Shown here: one piece after another, positions 32,488 through 41,162 of the stretch | Layout: every line of letters begins with the position of its first letter | How positions within the stretch are numbered: the stretch's first letter is position 1 | Assembly (NCBI RefSeq): GCF_004328625.1 | Contig: NZ_CP032229.1 | Coordinates: 2,542,001 to 2,606,000, forward strand | Origin: Streptomyces seoulensis | GTDB lineage: Bacteria > Actinomycetota > Actinomycetes > Streptomycetales > Streptomycetaceae | Direction: 5' to 3' | DNA: 64,000 nt | Notes under the pieces: generated by a model | What the model saw: only the letters and a program-made list of their open reading frames with translations | What the model was told of the DNA's origin: nothing | Database searches by the model: none | Position numbers and translations under genes: made by a program

Positions 32488-34692
32488 TCAGGCGCGGACC
32501 AGCTCCCGCTCCCCGTCCGGGTCGGACTCCGCACGGAGGCCCTCGCCCTCGACGTCGACGTTGGGCAGGGCGCGGTCCAGCCAGGCCGGGAGCCACCAGG
32601 CGCGGCGGCCGAGGAGGGCCAGGACGGCCGGGACGATGGCCATGCGGACGATGAAGGCGTCGAAGAAGACGGCGATGGCCAGGCCGAAGCCGATCATCTT
32701 GATCATCGCCTCGCTGGAACCGATGAAGCCGGAGAAGACGGCGATCATGATGACGGCGGCGGCGGTGACGACGCGGGCGCTGTAGCGGAAGCCGGTGACG
32801 ACCGCCTGGCCGGGGTTCTCCCCGTGGACGTACGCCTCACGCATCCGGGTCACCAGGAACACCTCGTAGTCCATGGCGAGTCCGAAGACCACGCCGACCA
32901 TGAAGATCGGCATCATCGACATGACCGGCCCGGTCTGCTCGACGTTCATCAGGCCGGACAGCCAGCCCCACTGGAAGACCGCGACGACCGCGCCGAGGGC
33001 GGCCAGCACGCTGAGCAGGAAGCCGAGGGCCGCCTTCAGCGGCACCAGGATCGAGCGGAACACCACGATCAGCAGCAGGAAGGCGAGGCCGACGACCAGC
33101 GCGAGGTAGGGCAGCAGCGCGTCGTTCAGCTTCTGCGACACGTCGATGTTCATCGCCGTGGCGCCCGTGACCAGCAGCTTCGCGTCCGTCGCGGAGGCGA
33201 TCGAGGCGCTCTTGCCCCGGATCGCGTGCACCAGGTCCTCGGTGGTGGCCGAGGACGGCTGGGACTTCGGTACGACGGTGATGATCGCGGTGTCGCCCGC
33301 CTTGTTGGGCGCCGGCGGGGTGACCGTGACGACGTCCTTCAGGCCCTTGATCTCGTCGCCGACCTTGGCGAACGCGGCCTTCTTGTCGGCGCTGCCCTTG
33401 GCGTCGACGACGACCATCAGCGGGCCGTTGAAGCCGGGGCCGAAGCCGTCGGAGAGCAGGTCGTAGGCGCGGCGCTGGGTGGTGGAGACGGGCTGGGAGC
33501 CGTCGTCGGGCAGCCCCAGTTCGAGCGAGGCGGCCGGGACGGCGGCGGCACCGAGGCCGACCACACCGAGCAGCAGCACGGTCACCGGGCGCCGGACCAC
33601 GAAGCTCGCCCACCGGGTGCCCATGTTGGGACGGCCGGCCTTCTTCGCCGCGCGTCCCCCGCCGAGCAGCTTGCTCTTCTCGCCGGCCGGCTTGACCGTA
33701 CGGCCCGCGTACCCGAGCAGCGCCGGGATCATGGTGAGCGCGATCAGCACCGCGATGGCGACCGTACCCGCGGCGGCCACGCCCATCTTGGTCAGCATCG
33801 GGATGTTGACCACGGAGAGCCCGACCAGCGCGATGACGACGGTGAGGCCCGCGAAGACCACCGCCGAGCCCGCCGTACCCACGGCGCGGCCCGCCGCCTC
33901 CTCGCGGTCGCGGCCCTCGGCCAGCTCGGCGCGATAGCGGGAGACGATGAAGAGGGCGTAGTCGATGCCGACCGCGAGGCCGATCATCGTGGCCAGCGTG
34001 GAGGTGGTGGAGCCGAGGTCCAGCGGGGTGGCCAGCGCGGTGATCGCGGAGACGCCGATGCCGACGCCGATGATCGCGGTGAGCAGCGGCAGCCCGGCCG
34101 CGATGAGCGAGCCGAAGGTGATGACGAGGACGACGGCCGCGATGGCGATGCCGATGACCTCGCTGGAGCCGGTCTCCGGCGCGGTGGTGAGCGCGTCACC
34201 GCCGATCTCGACCCTCAGCCCGGCGTCCCGCGCGTGCCCGGCGCTCTCCTTGAGGGCGTCACGGGAGGAGTCCTCCAGCTCCATCCCGGAGACCTTGTAC
34301 TTCACCGAGGCGTAGGCGATCGTGCCGTCCCGGCTGACCGCCTTGCCGGTGTACGGGTCGGCGACGGAGGCGACCTCGGAGCCGGAGCCCAGCTCCTTGA
34401 CCGTCTTCTCCACGGCCGCCTTGTTGGCGGCGTCGGTCATCTTCTGGCCCTCGGGCGCCTTGAAGACGACGCGGGCGGTGGCGCCGTCGGCGCTCATGCC
34501 GGGGAAGCGCTGCTCCAGCAGGTCGAAGGCGCGCTGCGCCTCGGTGCCCGGTATGGAGAAGGACGAGTTGCCGGCGGGCGGCGCGGAGGCGGCGCCCACC
34601 CCGGCGAGGGTGAGCAGCGCGACCCACAGCAGGGCGACGAAGTGCCGTCGCCGGAAGGCGAATCGGCCGAGTTTGTACAGGTACGTGGCCAC
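32488..34692 (-). CDS. MMPL family (RND superfamily) membrane transporter
   Basis: This 734-residue protein has the MMPL layout: an N-terminal span, an extracellular domain (about 40-180), five spans including VGIDYALFIVSRYRAELAEG, a second extracellular domain, and five more spans including GLAMDYEVFLVTRMREAY. The paired (I/M)DYxLF/VFLVxR motifs are the proton-relay hallmark. Such proteins export lipids or drugs. A TetR gene lies 104 bases upstream on the same strand, so it is probably the regulated target. The substrate is unknown. Confidence 0.9.
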   Translation of the reverse strand: MATYLYKLGRFAFRRRHFVALLWVALLTLAGVGAASAPPAGNSSFSIPGTEAQRAFDLLEQRFPGMSADGATARVVFKAPEGQKMTDAANKAAVEKTVKELGSGSEVASVADPYTGKAVSRDGTIAYASVKYKVSGMELEDSSRDALKESAGHARDAGLRVEIGGDALTTAPETGSSEVIGIAIAAVVLVITFGSLIAAGLPLLTAIIGVGIGVSAITALATPLDLGSTTSTLATMIGLAVGIDYALFIVSRYRAELAEGRDREEAAGRAVGTAGSAVVFAGLTVVIALVGLSVVNIPMLTKMGVAAAGTVAIAVLIALTMIPALLGYAGRTVKPAGEKSKLLGGGRAAKKAGRPNMGTRWASFVVRRPVTVLLLGVVGLGAAAVPAASLELGLPDDGSQPVSTTQRRAYDLLSDGFGPGFNGPLMVVVDAKGSADKKAAFAKVGDEIKGLKDVVTVTPPAPNKAGDTAIITVVPKSQPSSATTEDLVHAIRGKSASIASATDAKLLVTGATAMNIDVSQKLNDALLPYLALVVGLAFLLLIVVFRSILVPLKAALGFLLSVLAALGAVVAVFQWGWLSGLMNVEQTGPVMSMMPIFMVGVVFGLAMDYEVFLVTRMREAYVHGENPGQAVVTGFRYSARVVTAAAVIMIAVFSGFIGSSEAMIKMIGFGLAIAVFFDAFIVRMAIVPAVLALLGRRAWWLPAWLDRALPNVDVEGEGLRAESDPDGERELVRA

Positions 34693-34796
34693 GAGGGCGT
34701 ACTCCCGGTCAGGTCGGGTCGGGCATCTGGGCAGGGGTGGTCAGCCCGGCGACGTGAGCGGAGACGTCAGGTGGTGGGCTTGCGGGGAGGGGTCGG

Positions 34797-35396
34797 TCAG
34801 CTGGTGGGGACGCCGAGGGCGGGGAGGACCACGGCGTCGATGTAGGAGCGCAGGAATTCCTGCGTGGGCGGCTGCTCGTCGATGAGCGCCCGGGTGGCGA
34901 ACGCGCCGATCATCATGTGCACCACGAACGGCAGCGCCGGGTTGTCCGGGGCCACTTCGCCCCGGTCCACGGCCCGGCCCACCATCCCGCGCAGGGCGGC
35001 CATCTCGGGCTCGATGAGCTGTTCCCGGAAGGCGGCGAGAAGGTCGGGGTTGTTGTGGACGGCCATGGCCAGGCCCCGCATCAGGGCACTGTTCTGCTCC
35101 ATGGCGCAGTCGTCCTCGTGGTGCACGACCGCGAGGAAGTCCCCGCGCAGCGAGCCGGTGTCCACGTCGGCGATCCGGCCGGGCTTGCTGTGCCGGATCG
35201 CGCGGGCGACCAGTTCGGCCTTGCCGCCCCACTGGCGGTAGAGCGTGGCCTTGCTGGAGCGGGTGCGGGCGGCGACGGCGTCCATGGTGAGGGCGTCGTA
35301 GCCGACCTCGCGGAGCAGGTCGAGGACCGCCTCGTACAGCTCGGCGGCGCGCTCGGGCGTGAGCCTGCTGCGGCGCGCGGTGGCGGCGCCGGTCAT
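34797..35396 (-). CDS. TetR/AcrR family transcriptional regulator
   Basis: The 199-residue protein has an N-terminal TetR helix-turn-helix at about 15-60: LLREVGYDALTMDAVAARTRSSKATLYRQWGGK (quoted ends LLREVGYDAL and SKATLYRQW). The C-terminal ligand and dimer domain has the TetR_C pattern LRGMVGRAVDRGE. The start is the ATG at 35396; a GTG nine bases upstream is possible. It lies upstream of the MMPL gene and is divergent from the tricorn gene, with two dyads between. It probably represses itself and the MMPL gene. Confidence 0.88.
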   Translation of the reverse strand: MTGAATARRSRLTPERAAELYEAVLDLLREVGYDALTMDAVAARTRSSKATLYRQWGGKAELVARAIRHSKPGRIADVDTGSLRGDFLAVVHHEDDCAMEQNSALMRGLAMAVHNNPDLLAAFREQLIEPEMAALRGMVGRAVDRGEVAPDNPALPFVVHMMIGAFATRALIDEQPPTQEFLRSYIDAVVLPALGVPTS

Positions 35397-35429
35397 CCGC
35401 CTCACCCTCTCCCGCTGATCAAGACGACG

Positions 35430-35449
35430 CTGTACGGGACTCCGTACAG
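35430..35449. promoter_or_regulatory. Operator-like palindrome 1 (CTGTACGG-GACT-CCGTACAG)
   Basis: A perfect 8+8 inverted repeat with a 4-base spacer lies 33 bases upstream of the tetR start. Its position and symmetry fit a TetR-family operator. Confidence 0.6.
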
Positions 35450-35469
35450 GATGAAGGTACCCCGGCCTT

Positions 35470-35493
35470 GTACGAAACGAAACCGTTTCGTAC
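35470..35493. promoter_or_regulatory. Operator-like palindrome 2 (10-bp arms GTACGAAACG, spacer AAAC)
   Basis: A perfect 10+10 inverted repeat with a 4-base spacer lies 81 bases upstream of the tricorn start and 73 bases upstream of the tetR start. It shares the GTACG/CGTAC core with palindrome 1. It is a good candidate for a TetR site that could affect both divergent genes. Confidence 0.6.
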
Positions 35494-35573
35494 GGCCCCG
35501 GGGCGTGTCCTGCGTCACGGGGCGCGGGGCCGCACGAGTTGCTGCGCCTCTCGTGCCGGAAAAGCATGGATGG

Positions 35574-38500
35574 GTGAGCTATCTGCGGCTTCCCCACATC
35601 AGTGACGATCTGCTGTGCTTCGTGGCCGAGGACGACCTCTGGCTGGCACCGCTGGACGAACCGGGCCGCCCCTGGCGGCTCACGGCGGACCGCACCAAGG
35701 CCGGACACCCCCGTTTCTCGCCCGACGGCAAGCAGATCGCCTTCACCAGCTGGCGCAGCCTGGTGCCCGAGATCCACCTGGTGGACGTGGCCGGCGGCCC
35801 GGCGCGGCAGCTGACGTACTGGGGCAGCGCCGACACCCAGGTGTGCGGCTGGACGCCCCCCGACCAGCACGGCAGGAGCGACATCCTGGCCGTCGCCTCG
35901 CACGGCCAGCCCTTCTCCTACTTCACCTGGGCCCACAAGATCGGCACCGACGGCAGCCCCGGCGGCCGCCTGCCCTGGGGCCCGGTCGGTGACATCCAGG
36001 TCGCGGACACGGCGGGCGAGCACCAGACCCTCCTCCTGACCGGCACGCCCCCGCACGAGCCCGCGTCCTGGAAGCGGTACCGGGGCGGCGCGATGGGACG
36101 GCTGTGGCTCCAGGGCCGGCGGCTGCTGGAGGACATCGACGGCCAGCTCTCCTCCCCGATGTTCGTCGCCGGGCGTATCGCCTTCCTCTCCGACCACGAG
36201 GGCATCGGCAACCTGTACTCCGTCGCCCCCGACGGCACCGACCTGCGCCGGCACACCGACCACGACGCCTTCTACGCCCGGCACGCCGCGACCGACGGCG
36301 AGCGGGTGGTCTACCAGTGCGCCGGTGACATCTGGATCGTGGACGACCTCTCCCCCACCGGCACCCCGCGCAGGCTGGACATCGACCTGGGCGGCGCCGC
36401 CCCCGGCCGCCGCCCGTACCAGGTGCCCGCCGCGCACAACGTCGACGGCCTCTCCGTGGACGAGACCGGCCGGGCCAGCGCGGTCACCGTCCGGGGCAGC
36501 CTGTACTGGCTCACCCACCGCGACGGCCCGGCCCGCACCATCGCCGACACCCCCGGCGTCCGGGTGCGCCTGCCGGAGATGCTGGGCTCGACCGGCCAGC
36601 TCGCCTACGTCACCGACGCCGAGGGCGACGACGCGATCGCCATCGCCCAGCTGCCCCGCGCCACCGGCGGCCGCGAGCCCCGGCTGCTCGGCGAGGGCCG
36701 CCTCGGCCGGGTGCTGGAGATGGTCTCCGACCCGGAGGGCGAACGGCTGGCGGTCGCCTCGCACGACGGTCGCCTGCTGCTGATCGATGTCGCGGAGGAC
36801 GAAGAAGGCACAGCGAGCACCGAGGGCAGGCAGCCCGGCACCGTCACCGAGCTGATCCGCTCCGACAACGGCCCCGTCCGCGACCTGGCCTTCTCCCCCG
36901 ACGGCGCCTGGCTCACCTGGTCACACCCCGGCATCGGCCGCTCGCTGCGCAAGATCAAGCTGGCCCGGATCAAGGACCGGCTGATCGTGGACGTCACCAA
37001 CGGCCGCTTCGAGGACGAGAACCCGGTCTTCACCAGCGACGGCCGCTACCTCGCCTTCCTCTCCTGGCGCGGCTTCGACCCGGTGTACGACGTGCACACC
37101 GGCGACCTGTCCTTCCCGCTCGGCTGCCGTCCCTACCTCGTGCCGCTGAACTCGGCCACGCCCTCCCCGTTCGCCCTCAACCCCGAGGGCCGTCCGGCGG
37201 CGGGCGGGCTCGATCCGCTGGAGGCGGGGTCCGGCGAGAGCGGCACGGTGACGGTGGAGGTGGAGGGGCTGGAGAACCGGGTCACGCCGTTCCCGGTGAT
37301 GTCGTCCAAGTACTCGGCGCTGCGTCCGGTCGCCGGCGGCGGCCTGGTCTGGCTGCGCTGGCCGATCTCCGGCGCGCTGGGCGAGACCTTCGTCAACCCG
37401 GCCGACATCAGCGGCCGGCCCACGCTGGAGCACTTCAACCTCAGCAAGGCGAAGAAGTCCGAACTGGTCGGCCACCTCGACTGGTTCGAGGTGAGCGGCG
37501 ACGGCACCCGGCTGGTCGTGGTGGACGAGGGCGAGCTGCGCGCGGTGCCCGCCACCGAGCCCGGCGACAGCGACAGCACGGTCTGGATCGACCTGCGGCG
37601 CATCCTGCACGAGGTGGACCCGGCCGCCGAGTGGCGCGGCGCCTACGCCGAGGGCGGCAGGCTCATCCGGGACTACTTCTGGGACCCCGGCATGTGCGGG
37701 ATCGATTGGCCCGCCATCCTGGAGCAGTACCGCCCGCTGGTCGAACGGGTCACCTCCCCCGACGAGTTCGCCGACCTGATGCGTGAAGTCCTCGGCGAAC
37801 TGGGCACGTCGCACGCCTACGTCACCCCGGCCCGGCGCAACGAGGGGCCGCCGCACTACCAGCGCCGGCAGGGCCTCCTCGGGGCCAACTTCGTCTGCCG
37901 GGACGGGGCTTGGATGATCGCCCGCATCCTCGACGGCGACTCCTCCGACTCCCGCGCCCGCTCCCCGCTGGCCGGTACCGGCATCCGCGAGGGCTCCGTG
38001 CTGACCCATGTCAACGGGCGCCCGGTGGACCCGGTGACCGGGCCGTACCCGCTGCTCGCGGGGTCCGGCGGCACCACCGTCGACCTCACCTTCACCCCGC
38101 CCCCGGGCGAGCCGGGCCCCGCCCGCCGGGTGGCCGTGGTCCCGCTGCTCGACGACCGCTCGCTGCGCTACCAGGACTGGGTGGCCAAACGCCGCGAGGT
38201 GGTGAGGGAGTTGAGCGGCGGGCAGTGCGGCTATCTGCACATCCCCGACCTGGGCGGCTCCGGCTGGGCGCAGTTCAACCGCGATCTGCGCCTGGAGGTG
38301 TCCCGGCCCGCGCTGATCGTGGACGTGCGCGGCAACGCGGGCGGGCACATCAGCGAGCTGGTGATAGAGAAGCTGACCCGGACCATCCTCGGCTGGGACC
38401 TGACCCGTGACGCGGAGGCGGTGTCCTACGCCTCCAACGCGCCGCGCGGGCCGGTGGTGGCGCTGGCGGACGAGGCGACCTCCTCCGACGGTGACATGAT

Positions 38501-38858
38501 CACCGCGGCGTTCAAGCTGCTCGGGCTCGGACCCGTGGTCGGGCAGCGCACCTGGGGCGGGGTCGTCGGCATCACCGGCCGGCACCGGCTCGGGGACGGC
38601 ACGGTGATCACGGTGCCGATGAACGCGGCCTGGTTCGACGAGTACGGCTGGTCCGTGGAGAACCGGGGCGTCACGCCCGACCTGGAGGCGCTGCGCACCC
38701 CGCTGGACTGGGCCGAGGGGCGCTACGCCCAGCTCGACGACGCCGTGCGGCTGGCGCTGGAGATGCTGGAGACGACCCCGGTCGCGGTGCCGCCCGACTA
38801 CAGCGACGTACCGGACCGCTCACGGCCCAAGCTGCCGCCGCGTGAGGAGGGGGCATGA
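35574..38858 (+). CDS. Tricorn protease homologue
   Basis: Tricorn is a large cytoplasmic peptidase that trims proteasome products. The 1094-residue protein has an N-terminal beta-propeller region with WD40/TolB-like strands (PRFSPDGKQIAFTSW, LAFSPDGAWLTWSH), then a second propeller, a PDZ-like domain (about 780-850) and a C-terminal S41 protease core. Expected catalytic residues are Ser746/His747 in GTSHAYV, Ser971/Asp972 in TSSDGD and Glu1029 in VENRGVTPD, close to the Thermoplasma numbering I recall. The GTG at 35574 gives MSYLRLPH; the frame upstream lacks similarity. The ribosome-binding site is weak. Streptomyces carry several such genes. Confidence 0.92.
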   Translation: MSYLRLPHISDDLLCFVAEDDLWLAPLDEPGRPWRLTADRTKAGHPRFSPDGKQIAFTSWRSLVPEIHLVDVAGGPARQLTYWGSADTQVCGWTPPDQHGRSDILAVASHGQPFSYFTWAHKIGTDGSPGGRLPWGPVGDIQVADTAGEHQTLLLTGTPPHEPASWKRYRGGAMGRLWLQGRRLLEDIDGQLSSPMFVAGRIAFLSDHEGIGNLYSVAPDGTDLRRHTDHDAFYARHAATDGERVVYQCAGDIWIVDDLSPTGTPRRLDIDLGGAAPGRRPYQVPAAHNVDGLSVDETGRASAVTVRGSLYWLTHRDGPARTIADTPGVRVRLPEMLGSTGQLAYVTDAEGDDAIAIAQLPRATGGREPRLLGEGRLGRVLEMVSDPEGERLAVASHDGRLLLIDVAEDEEGTASTEGRQPGTVTELIRSDNGPVRDLAFSPDGAWLTWSHPGIGRSLRKIKLARIKDRLIVDVTNGRFEDENPVFTSDGRYLAFLSWRGFDPVYDVHTGDLSFPLGCRPYLVPLNSATPSPFALNPEGRPAAGGLDPLEAGSGESGTVTVEVEGLENRVTPFPVMSSKYSALRPVAGGGLVWLRWPISGALGETFVNPADISGRPTLEHFNLSKAKKSELVGHLDWFEVSGDGTRLVVVDEGELRAVPATEPGDSDSTVWIDLRRILHEVDPAAEWRGAYAEGGRLIRDYFWDPGMCGIDWPAILEQYRPLVERVTSPDEFADLMREVLGELGTSHAYVTPARRNEGPPHYQRRQGLLGANFVCRDGAWMIARILDGDSSDSRARSPLAGTGIREGSVLTHVNGRPVDPVTGPYPLLAGSGGTTVDLTFTPPPGEPGPARRVAVVPLLDDRSLRYQDWVAKRREVVRELSGGQCGYLHIPDLGGSGWAQFNRDLRLEVSRPALIVDVRGNAGGHISELVIEKLTRTILGWDLTRDAEAVSYASNAPRGPVVALADEATSSDGDMITAAFKLLGLGPVVGQRTWGGVVGITGRHRLGDGTVITVPMNAAWFDEYGWSVENRGVTPDLEALRTPLDWAEGRYAQLDDAVRLALEMLETTPVAVPPDYSDVPDRSRPKLPPREEGA

Positions 38859-38863
38859 AAAAA

Positions 38864-38879
38864 GGCGGGTCCTCCCGCC
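38864..38879. terminator. Short hairpin after the tricorn gene
   Basis: GGCGGG-TCCT-CCCGCC forms a 6-bp stem six bases after the tricorn stop and is preceded by a run of A. On the minus strand this would be a classic hairpin plus U-tract, although no minus-strand gene reads into it. Confidence 0.5.
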
Positions 38880-38898
38880 GTGAACAACGTATAGCGCA

Positions 38899-38925
38899 AG
38901 GGGGGCCTTGCGGCAAGGCCCCCCT
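38899..38925 (+). promoter_or_regulatory. Rifamycin-associated element (RAE)-like palindrome upstream of helR
   Basis: A perfect 12-bp inverted repeat (AGGGGGGCCTTG and its complement) flanks a central CGG. The core CCTTGCGGCAAGG with G/C arms matches the rifamycin-associated element as I recall it (core TTGCGGCAAGG flanked by GGGG and CCCC), known upstream of actinomycete rifamycin-inactivation genes and helR. It ends 44 bases before the helR GTG. A TATAGC hexamer at 38890-38895 is a possible -10. It could also fold as a hairpin, but the match and position argue for a regulatory site. Confidence 0.8.
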
Positions 38926-38969
38926 CATGCCGCAGAATCGCTCGCCGAGCCCAGAACCTGCGGAAATGA

Positions 38970-41162
38970 GTGATCCACTACATGTGTGCGCTGCTGTCCG
39001 AGCGTGAACCCGCGCCGGAGTCCCGCGCGTTCGACCTCCCCGACCGGCTCGCCGCCAAGGCCGACCCGGCACTGATCGGCGCCGACAAGCGGCACTTCGC
39101 GGAGATCGCCGAGAGCCTGGAGCAGACCGTCGCCGAGCTGTCCGCGAGCCTGGACGCGCTGCGCCGGGCGCCCGGCGGGGTCGGCCGTGAGGTGCTGGAG
39201 CGGGACCTGGAGATCCACCGGCTGACCGCCCGGCTGCGCGCCCTGCGCCGCTTCGGCCTCGACCTGTGTCTCGGCCGCATCGTGCACGACGGTGACGGCG
39301 AGGACGCGGAGCCGGTCTACATCGGCCGCCTCGGCCTCACCGACAGCACCGGCCGCCGGCTGCTGATCGACTGGCGCTCCCCGGCCGCCGAACCCTTCTT
39401 CGCCGCCACCCACGCCCACCCGATGGGCCTGGCGAGCCGCCGCCGCTACCGCTGGACGCGTGGCCGGATCACCGACTACTGGGACGAGGTGTTCACCGCC
39501 GACGGCCTGGAGCACCACGCGGCGCTGGACGACCAGTCCGCCTTCATCGCCACCCTGGGCACCAACCGCTCGGAGCGGATGCGGGACGTGCTCGCCACCA
39601 TCCAGGCCGACCAGGACGCGATCATCCGCGCCTCCTCGCGCGGCGCCCTCGTGGTGGACGGCGGCCCCGGCACCGGCAAGACCGTCGTCGCCCTGCACCG
39701 CTCCGCCTACCTGCTGCACTCCGACCCGCGCCTCGGACACCGCCGGGGCGGCGTCCTCTTCGTCGGCCCGCACCAGCCCTACCTCAACTACGTCGCCGAC
39801 GTGCTGCCGAGCCTGGGCGAGGAGGGGGTGCAGACCTGCACCGTGCGGGATCTGGTCGCCGAGGGCGCCACGGCGGGCGTCGAGAGCGACCCCGAGGTGG
39901 CCCGGCTGAAGTCCTCGGCGGAGCTGGTGAAGGGCATCGAGAAGGCGGTCCGCTTCTACGAGACCCCGCCCACCGACCCCCTGACCGTCAGCACCCCGTG
40001 GGGCGAGCTGCACCTGAGCGCCGCCGACTGGGCCGAGGCGTTCGAGGCGGCGGAGGCGGGCGTCCCGCACAACGAGGCCCGCGACCTGATCTGGGAGGCG
40101 CTCGTCACGATCCTCCGCGACCAGCTCGACAAGGAGGTCCCGCCCACCCTCTTCCGCCGGGCCCTGGCCGCCGACGGCGAGCTGACCGGCACCCTCCGCC
40201 GCGCCTGGCCGCTGCTGGAGGCGGCCGATCTGGTGGGCGACCTGTGGACGGTCCCGGCCTACCTGCGGATGTGCGCCCCCTGGCTCTCCCCCGACGAGGT
40301 GCGCCTGCTGCGCCGCGCCGACCCGCAGGCGTGGACGGTGTCCGACCTGCCGCTGCTGGACGCGGCCCGGCAGCGGCTCGGGGACCCGGAGGTCTCGCGG
40401 AAGAAGCGCCGCCAGGCCGCCACGGTCGCCGTCGAGCGGGAGCGGATGTCCGCCGTCATCGACAGCGTGCTCGCCGCCGACCCGGACGGCGAGGGCGCGG
40501 TGACCATGCTGCACGGACAGGACCTCAAGGACAGCCTGGTCGACGAGGGCGCGCTGCCCGCCATCGAGGCGGACGCGCTGGCCGGGCCGTTCGCGCACAT
40601 CGTGGTGGACGAGGCCCAGGAGCTGACCGACGCCGAGTGGCAGATGCTGCTCCTGCGCTGCCCGTCCCGCAGCTTCACCATCGTGGGCGACCGGGCCCAG
40701 GCCCGGCACGGCTTCACCGAGTCCTGGCGGGAGCGGCTCGCGCGGGCCGGCCTCGGCCGGGTGGAGGTGGCCTCGCTGAGCATCAACTACCGCACCCCGG
40801 AAGAGGTGATGGCGGAGGCGGAGCCGGTGATCCGCGCCGCCCTCCCGGACGCCAACGTGCCGGTCTCGGTCCGCGCGGGCGGCATCCCCGTCACCTACGG
40901 GACGGTCTCCGACCTGGACGCGGTGCTGCACGACTGGCTGGCCGGGAACGAGGAAGGGACCGCCTGTGTCATCGGCGATCCCGAGTTCAAGGAGCGCCCC
41001 CGCGTCCGCTCGCTCACCCCGGAGCTGGCCAAGGGGCTGGAGTTCGACCTCGTCGTACTGGTGGACCCGGACGCCCTCGGCGACGGCATCGAGGGCGCGG
41101 TGGACCGGTACGTGGCGATGACCCGCGCCACCCAGCGGCTCGTCGTGCTGAGCGGTACCTAG
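38970..41162 (+). CDS. helR: HelR-like helicase-family ATPase that releases or protects RNA polymerase
   Basis: HelR is a UvrD/HelD-like ATPase that displaces rifamycins from RNA polymerase and recycles stalled enzyme. The 730-residue product has an N-terminal coiled coil (about 30-100), the HelD-type segment YIGRLGLTDSTGRRLLIDWRSP (quoted ends YIGRLGL and LLIDWRSP), Walker A GGPGTGKT at 231-238, Walker B HIVVDEAQE, and late helicase motifs SINYRTPEEV and AKGLEFDLVVLVDP with MTRATQRLVVL. The start is GTG 38970 or ATG 38982, both in frame. The RAE-like palindrome upstream strongly supports HelR over a generic UvrD. Confidence 0.88.
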   Translation: MIHYMCALLSEREPAPESRAFDLPDRLAAKADPALIGADKRHFAEIAESLEQTVAELSASLDALRRAPGGVGREVLERDLEIHRLTARLRALRRFGLDLCLGRIVHDGDGEDAEPVYIGRLGLTDSTGRRLLIDWRSPAAEPFFAATHAHPMGLASRRRYRWTRGRITDYWDEVFTADGLEHHAALDDQSAFIATLGTNRSERMRDVLATIQADQDAIIRASSRGALVVDGGPGTGKTVVALHRSAYLLHSDPRLGHRRGGVLFVGPHQPYLNYVADVLPSLGEEGVQTCTVRDLVAEGATAGVESDPEVARLKSSAELVKGIEKAVRFYETPPTDPLTVSTPWGELHLSAADWAEAFEAAEAGVPHNEARDLIWEALVTILRDQLDKEVPPTLFRRALAADGELTGTLRRAWPLLEAADLVGDLWTVPAYLRMCAPWLSPDEVRLLRRADPQAWTVSDLPLLDAARQRLGDPEVSRKKRRQAATVAVERERMSAVIDSVLAADPDGEGAVTMLHGQDLKDSLVDEGALPAIEADALAGPFAHIVVDEAQELTDAEWQMLLLRCPSRSFTIVGDRAQARHGFTESWRERLARAGLGRVEVASLSINYRTPEEVMAEAEPVIRAALPDANVPVSVRAGGIPVTYGTVSDLDAVLHDWLAGNEEGTACVIGDPEFKERPRVRSLTPELAKGLEFDLVVLVDPDALGDGIEGAVDRYVAMTRATQRLVVLSGT

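Follow-up and report, generated by a model that had tools for sequence, protein, structure and literature searches.

Among the closest described systems is the rifamycin-associated element (RAE) of S. venezuelae. The passages on the RAE in PMC10719064, PMC12802891, PMC8655204 and PMC10194278 present it as a 19-bp palindrome or as an element upstream of the gene, and neither an antisense promoter nor a terminator is mentioned in these passages. According to the relevant part of one review (PMC10719064), an RAE-based search in S. venezuelae gave two matches, rox and helR, and the RAE is required for rifamycin induction. The same part describes two sense promoters in M. smegmatis: P2, whose start was mapped and whose -35 element lies on the RAE, and P1, which is located upstream of the RAE.

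Two other systems share features with the locus studied here. In the B. subtilis rifampicin alarm, as given in the pertinent passages of PMC12802891, two opposed promoters are located before helD and pps. The antisense promoter is the stronger one, the antisense promoters have 19-bp spacers, and the two promoters converge (39 bp including both starts). In the bidirectional promoters of E. coli, as far as the corresponding passages of PMC12825309 describe them, pseudo-symmetric DNA can load the polymerase either way but not both ways at once, and a direction that is strongly used can repress its opposite. The starts are 10-23 bp apart in five tested promoters.

The window, i.e. the whole stretch of 64,000 nucleotides of Streptomyces seoulensis DNA analyzed here, was predicted to carry an RAE-like palindrome upstream of a HelD/HelR-like ATPase gene (Table 1). 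When the gene product was compared with curated family models, it scored 1259 bits on the HelR model (NCBIfam NF041254, cut-off 750), and the sister models motor_HelR_2 (430 bits) and HelD_MYCSM (NF041465; 397 bits, cut-off 1051) were both under their own cut-offs. Grouping with UvrD/Rep, which the original prediction had named as the contrary outcome, was judged by model scores and was rejected, as the HelD/HelR models gave 102-1259 bits and the UvrD, PcrA and Rep models 18-22 bits. When phmmer was applied to the solved structure of M. smegmatis HelD (class II; PDB 6yxu), residues 65-727 of the window protein were matched with 348 bits and its middle was aligned without a long gap. In this part the primary-channel loop which reaches the rifamycin pocket in HelR would be located. 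In contrast to this match, the window protein fails the family model of the M. smegmatis protein (NF041465) and passes only that of HelR. Comparison with the models and the structure thus identifies the open reading frame as HelR, in agreement with the predicted HelD/HelR-like ATPase. Two more long HelD-like matches (440 and 426 bits) and weaker ones were found in the window's genome, all below the HelR cut-off.

The palindrome itself (AGGGGGGCCTTGCGGCAAGGCCCCCCT) was confirmed at the predicted coordinates, as a perfect 27-base palindrome with G/C arms which is separated by 44 bases from the GTG start of the 730-residue frame. The core letters taken here to be those of the RAE are the ones named in the original prediction. 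When the 13-base core alone was searched in the window with up to two mismatches, 2 matches were found versus 2.67 expected, which is within chance. The core was present in 61 of 150 genomes of the same genus and a reversed control pattern was equally or more frequent in many of them; core-only enrichment was therefore dropped as not significant. In the window's genome (6.43 Mb, 2 contigs), CCTTGCNGCAAGG was found in two places only, the helR locus and a second locus. The whole-genome search for copies, proposed with the original prediction, hence returned one further copy, which is upstream of a leftward FAD monooxygenase gene of the rifampin monooxygenase type. Its protein, truncated by the end of the locus, scored 794 bits on the rifampin monooxygenase model NF033145 (cut-off 800).

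Table 1 Features of the helR locus (positions of the window)
Feature	Position	Strand	Remarks
Tricorn-like protease gene, upstream and co-directional	35409..38858	+	Start approximate, chosen by us; longest ORF 34917-38858
Intrinsic-terminator-like hairpin GGCGGGAGGACCCGCC followed by T6	38858..38879	-	Starts at the predicted antisense +1 (38879, position -29)
Predicted antisense -10, TACGTT (TANNNT)	38886..38891	-	19-bp spacer; mirrors the sense -10 exactly
Rifamycin-associated element (RAE), 27-base perfect palindrome	38899..38925	.	Core TTGCGGCAA at 38908-38916; core recurs before rifamycin-resistance genes elsewhere
Predicted sense -35, TTGCGG	38908..38913	+	Placed relative to the conserved -10; mycobacterial P2 -35 overlaps the RAE
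Predicted antisense -35, TTGCCG	38911..38916	-	3-bp overlap with the sense -35
Predicted sense -10, CAGAAT	38933..38938	+	19-bp spacer; consensus CANAAT, C first in 96/104
helR, RNA polymerase recycling motor ATPase HelR	38970..41162	+	730-codon ORF; start GTG 38970 or ATG 38982 (726 aa)

The best 80 of 540 HelR loci found were collected, and column conservation was computed in 60 of these 80. In these 60 loci, conservation extends well past the palindrome, to about 50 positions on either side of the core (-50 to +50), and defines a block of approximately 100 bp. When the plus strand is numbered from the first T of TTGCNGCAA, two motifs stand out, AACNTA at -22 to -17 and CANAAT at +25 to +30, and both are equidistant from the palindrome centre (+4). 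Read on the minus strand, the core gives TTGCCG and the left motif gives TANGTT, which follows TTGCCG after 19 bp. The -10 elements of actinobacteria usually have the form TANNNT.

A skeleton of 14 bases (ANNNTA, TTGCNGCAA and CANNNT at the observed spacings), which was drawn up after the data had been seen, was found with zero or one mismatch in 66 of the 80 HelR loci and with two to four mismatches in none. The remaining 14 loci, one of which has only 50 upstream bases, show five to seven mismatches and resemble the in-gene control (four to seven). As the blocks of the column table had been picked partly by an upstream TATA, its TATA columns are biased, and a palindrome-only search was made to avoid this bias. 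In that pattern, the RAE and the G/C arms were fixed and positions -22 to -7 and +13 to +30 were left free. Of the 394 genomes of the class, 144 were matched by the palindrome with its G/C arms and 161 by the two-sided block (at most one mismatch), with zero in the control columns throughout. The fuller motif, in either form, is therefore far beyond chance. In the window's genome, the two-sided block is found twice, before helR and rox, and this RAE pair repeats the one known from S. venezuelae.

For the mirror test, the 104 palindrome-only matches listed from outside the window's genus were used and same-genus matches were left out. The antisense TANNNT was found at the exact mirror position in 99 of these 104 listed matches, compared with 0-2 at each of ten shifted positions. 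The sense hexamer carried A at its second and T at its sixth base in 102 of the 104, compared with 0-3 at each of 17 shifted positions, and its first base was C in 96 of the listed matches and G, T or A in 5, 2 and 1, respectively. In the 21 listed matches of one family (f4), the antisense hexamer has T1 in 20, A2 in 20 and T6 in 21, and little is conserved at its positions 3-5 (0.25-0.32 bits), as a -10 element would show. No consensus promoter was found when positions 38780-39020 were scanned with a generic sigma-70 pattern (spacers of 16-18 bp). The predicted sense and antisense starts are 64-66 bp apart.

The opposite strand was also analyzed for RNA structure. In the window, a single terminator-like site was found between 38780 and 39020 (0.3 expected). 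It occupies 38879-38864 of the minus strand and ends in T6, and the stop codon of the tricorn-like gene abuts its T-tract. The antisense hairpin has a folding energy of -12.4 kcal/mol (z -2.35). Hairpins were measured in 146 of the 148 block-bearing loci described below. A z below -2 for antisense +1 to +34 was obtained in 73 of the 146 relatives versus 5-6 % in two comparison stretches (50 nt further left, and the sense 5' end), in which the mean z was about 0. A hairpin at the sense 5' end is likewise unsupported in the window (z +1.0). The mean z of the antisense stretch was -3.35 in the 39 same-genus loci and -1.60 in the 107 others, and the first paired base was at most 4 bases from the predicted antisense +1 in 39/39 and 98/107 loci, respectively. 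At least 8 of 9 pairs can form at a fixed position in 73 of 146 loci, versus 3 at a position 60 nt away, a control count given without its denominator. Within these 73 pairing loci, the only ones in which they were counted, paired exchanges occur on both sides, e.g. C-G for A-T and A-T for G-C. The eight bases past the hairpin contain a mean of 4.4 T in the 39 same-genus loci and 2.7 T in the 107 others, and only 53 of 146 loci have at least four. The hairpin is weak in family f4 (z below -2 in 4 of 20). The predicted antisense terminator thus stands out in the window and its genus and is uneven in the other loci, and the hairpin is weak or absent in half of the loci.

A total of 150 loci were examined, 146 from the two-sided-block matches listed (30 + 116 fetched) and four from the core search; two matches of the window's genome (G000), that of G512 and one of G481 were left out. 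The two-sided block is present in 148 of them and absent in L267 and L269. When the genes behind the 148 blocks were assigned by tblastn against family representatives, 73 HelR/HelD-family, 41 Rox, 19 Rph and 10 Rgt genes were found. The rest consists of three DrrAB-like ABC exporters, one Arr and one unassigned gene whose frame begins like Rox. Here, HelR/HelD-family denotes a tblastn match to the window protein, and several such proteins of family f4 are below the HelR cut-off; the representatives used for Arr and ABC were drawn from the examined set itself. The representatives of rif_monoox (871 bits, cut-off 800), RIF_Ptrans_rph (1134, 999) and rifampin_ARR (204, 130) are above their NCBIfam cut-offs, and those of Rgt (495, 800) and drrA (270, 312) are below. 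HelR above its cut-off was found in 101 of 296 class genomes searched, and among the matches listed for family f4 several HelD/HelR-like proteins do not reach it.

By this comparison, 144 of the 148 examined blocks are followed by a HelR/HelD-family, Rox, Rph, Rgt or Arr gene, which makes the two-sided block a specific search key for rifamycin-resistance genes. The three DrrAB-like ABC exporters are behind the block in loci L198, L199 and L201, which belong to three genera of one family (f14). The block thus points to this exporter group, for which no link to the RAE was found in the literature consulted, and its position suggests a further group of rifamycin-resistance genes.

The palindrome is supported as the known RAE because of its core, its position before helR and rox in the window's genome, and the presence of the block, in other genomes, ahead of genes for Rox, Rph, Rgt, Arr and members of the HelR family. 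The original prediction was therefore correct, and what it described is largely known already; rifamycin induction of the window's helR is predicted by analogy. What it missed is that the RAE, by the comparison of genomes, is the middle of a conserved promoter-like block with two sides, and that a predicted terminator is located on the opposite strand. The window resembles the S. venezuelae system in the palindrome core, the gene pair and the place just before the gene (passages of PMC10719064 and PMC8655204), and the predicted sense promoter has a -35 overlapping the RAE, as published (PMC10719064). In contrast, the passages of PMC10719064 and PMC8655204 give the palindrome and sense promoters only, with no mention of a mirror antisense -10 or a terminator. 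The literature searched, which lay outside the primary RAE and HelR papers, yielded no report of antisense transcription from a promoter at the RAE, and no priority is claimed. Within that literature, the mirror-image anatomy appears to be new, and its symmetry is well supported by comparison.

We consider it probable that the block is a mirror-image promoter pair with a fused -35. In the RAE core, the -35 hexamer of one strand would overlap that of the other. A 19-bp spacer would separate each hexamer from its own -10, which looks weaker on the helR side (CANAAT) and better on the left (TANNNT). RNA polymerase would be loaded in one direction at a time. The leftward RNA would fold from its first base and end at the intrinsic terminator after about 22-35 nt, and the left half would hence be a dead end and the off position. 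Rifamycin, via an RAE-binding factor or an altered polymerase, would shift use to the sense side, after which HelR would be made and RNA polymerase freed of rifamycin. Rifamycin induction via the RAE and the action of HelR are carried over from the literature; we infer the firing of both promoters, the role of the left one as off position and the way in which rifamycin tips the balance. HelR shields RNA polymerase from rifamycin antibiotics.

Like the E. coli bidirectional promoters, the block is symmetric DNA that may load polymerase in two exclusive directions. However, the predicted starts are much further apart than in the five E. coli promoters (64-66 bp versus 10-23 bp), the -35 elements are shared, one side is predicted to be a dead end, and the symmetry is seen here in the sequence alone. 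When three forms of a kinetic model were scanned with 600,000 random parameter sets and 10 % of the polymerase bound by rifamycin, mutual exclusion alone gave no induction (largest sense-output ratios 0.90, 0.998 and 0.999). Pure promoter competition was therefore rejected as the induction mechanism under these settings, and the model needs a further step, either a factor bound to the palindrome or a choice of direction that changes specifically with rifamycin. Our confidence in the model is slightly lowered because a T-rich tail follows the hairpin in only 53 of the 146 loci. The M. smegmatis promoter P1, which the two-sided block leaves unexplained, and the 14 of 80 HelR loci lacking the block are also points against it, as are the sigma-70 scan that gave no promoter in the region, the loci with a weak or absent hairpin and the loss of inducibility on steric promoter overlap in B. 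subtilis (PMC12802891). Rifamycin sensing by the RAE is called unsolved in the relevant passage of PMC12802891, and the mirror anatomy makes this question open to simple tests. A wider claim is doubtful, namely that the RAE is more than a factor's operator and forms the fused -35 of an ancient mirror-image promoter pair, whose left self-terminating RNA of about 22-35 nt would act as a sensor of polymerase health and hold helR, rox, rph, rgt, arr and the ABC exporter group off across the class until polymerase is poisoned.

The explanation that competes best, with a chance somewhat short of even, is that the RAE is the operator of a rifamycin-responsive transcription factor with one sense promoter, and that the antisense -10 and the hairpin are by-products or serve the factor. 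This is the published view, as a factor is suspected and none has been identified according to the passages of PMC10719064 and PMC12802891. The G/C arms outside the -35 are conserved, as an operator would have it, and the step missing from pure competition would be provided by such a factor. However, a symmetric dimer needs no opposite-strand TANNNT 21-26 bp from the centre, which is nevertheless kept in 99 of the 104 listed matches with positions 3-5 nearly free in f4, nor does it demand a leftward hairpin from the predicted antisense +1.

Sensing by RNA polymerase alone, on the pattern of the dual-promoter alarm of B. subtilis, is unlikely; here rifamycin would disable the antisense unit and so free the sense unit. 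Several features of the window are shared with that alarm: a sense -10 that is weaker and an antisense -10 closer to the consensus, 19-bp spacers as in two B. subtilis antisense promoters (PMC12802891, passages on the alarm), an antisense terminator, and the HelD family as common target. The geometry differs, as the predicted promoters of the window diverge from overlapping -35 elements, with the leftward RNA predicted to be terminated, and do not converge. In B. subtilis, steric overlap of the two convergent promoters abolished inducibility (same passages), and the kinetic scan yielded no induction by exclusion alone.

Another reading, which we regard as improbable, assigns the left-hand TATAGC as -10 to a second promoter in sense direction (P1) and not to an antisense one. 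TATAGC is kept in 70 of the 104 listed matches outside the genus, and a sense P1 upstream of the RAE is known in M. smegmatis (PMC10719064, relevant part). However, its sixth base is T in 0 of the 104 listed matches, the column table contains no -35-like hexamer at the proper distance, and in family f4 TATAGC occurs in 5 of 21 listed matches versus 20 of 21 for the antisense TANNNT. The M. smegmatis P1 start is about 20 bp upstream of the RAE (same source), whereas a start from TATAGC would fall inside it. Since TATAGC is poorly kept in f4 and has T at its sixth base in none of the listed matches, the antisense -10 is favoured over a second sense -10. A role of the palindrome in terminating transcription of the upstream gene can practically be dismissed: its RNA would fold very stably (-24.5 kcal/mol), but a T-run is absent after it on both strands, the terminator scan omits it, and the very letters of the palindrome are kept ahead of resistance genes in different genera.

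Some minor observations were made beside the mirror-image promoter pair favoured here. In the window, the minus strand of 32488-35400 carries an MMPL/RND-like transporter gene beside a TetR-like regulator frame, as judged by eye from the translations. Two further HelD-like genes of the window's genome (G000:C1:4346653-4348782 and 4680469-4682790) were inspected and the two-sided block is found at neither place. In L048, L057, L063, L080, L110 and others, the RAE is located about 160-550 bp before the start of the HelR match, possibly because of a long leader or a different start. LexA-box-like sequences were observed beside the RAE in five loci in all. In L152 and L163 (HelR/HelD-family genes of family f4), TCGAAC-N4-GTTCGA is located 75-79 bp left of the RAE core and may belong to the leftward neighbour gene. 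Finally, helR and the RAE block are present on a plasmid record of 1.07 Mb in S. nigrescens HEK616 (plasmid SNP1, L075).
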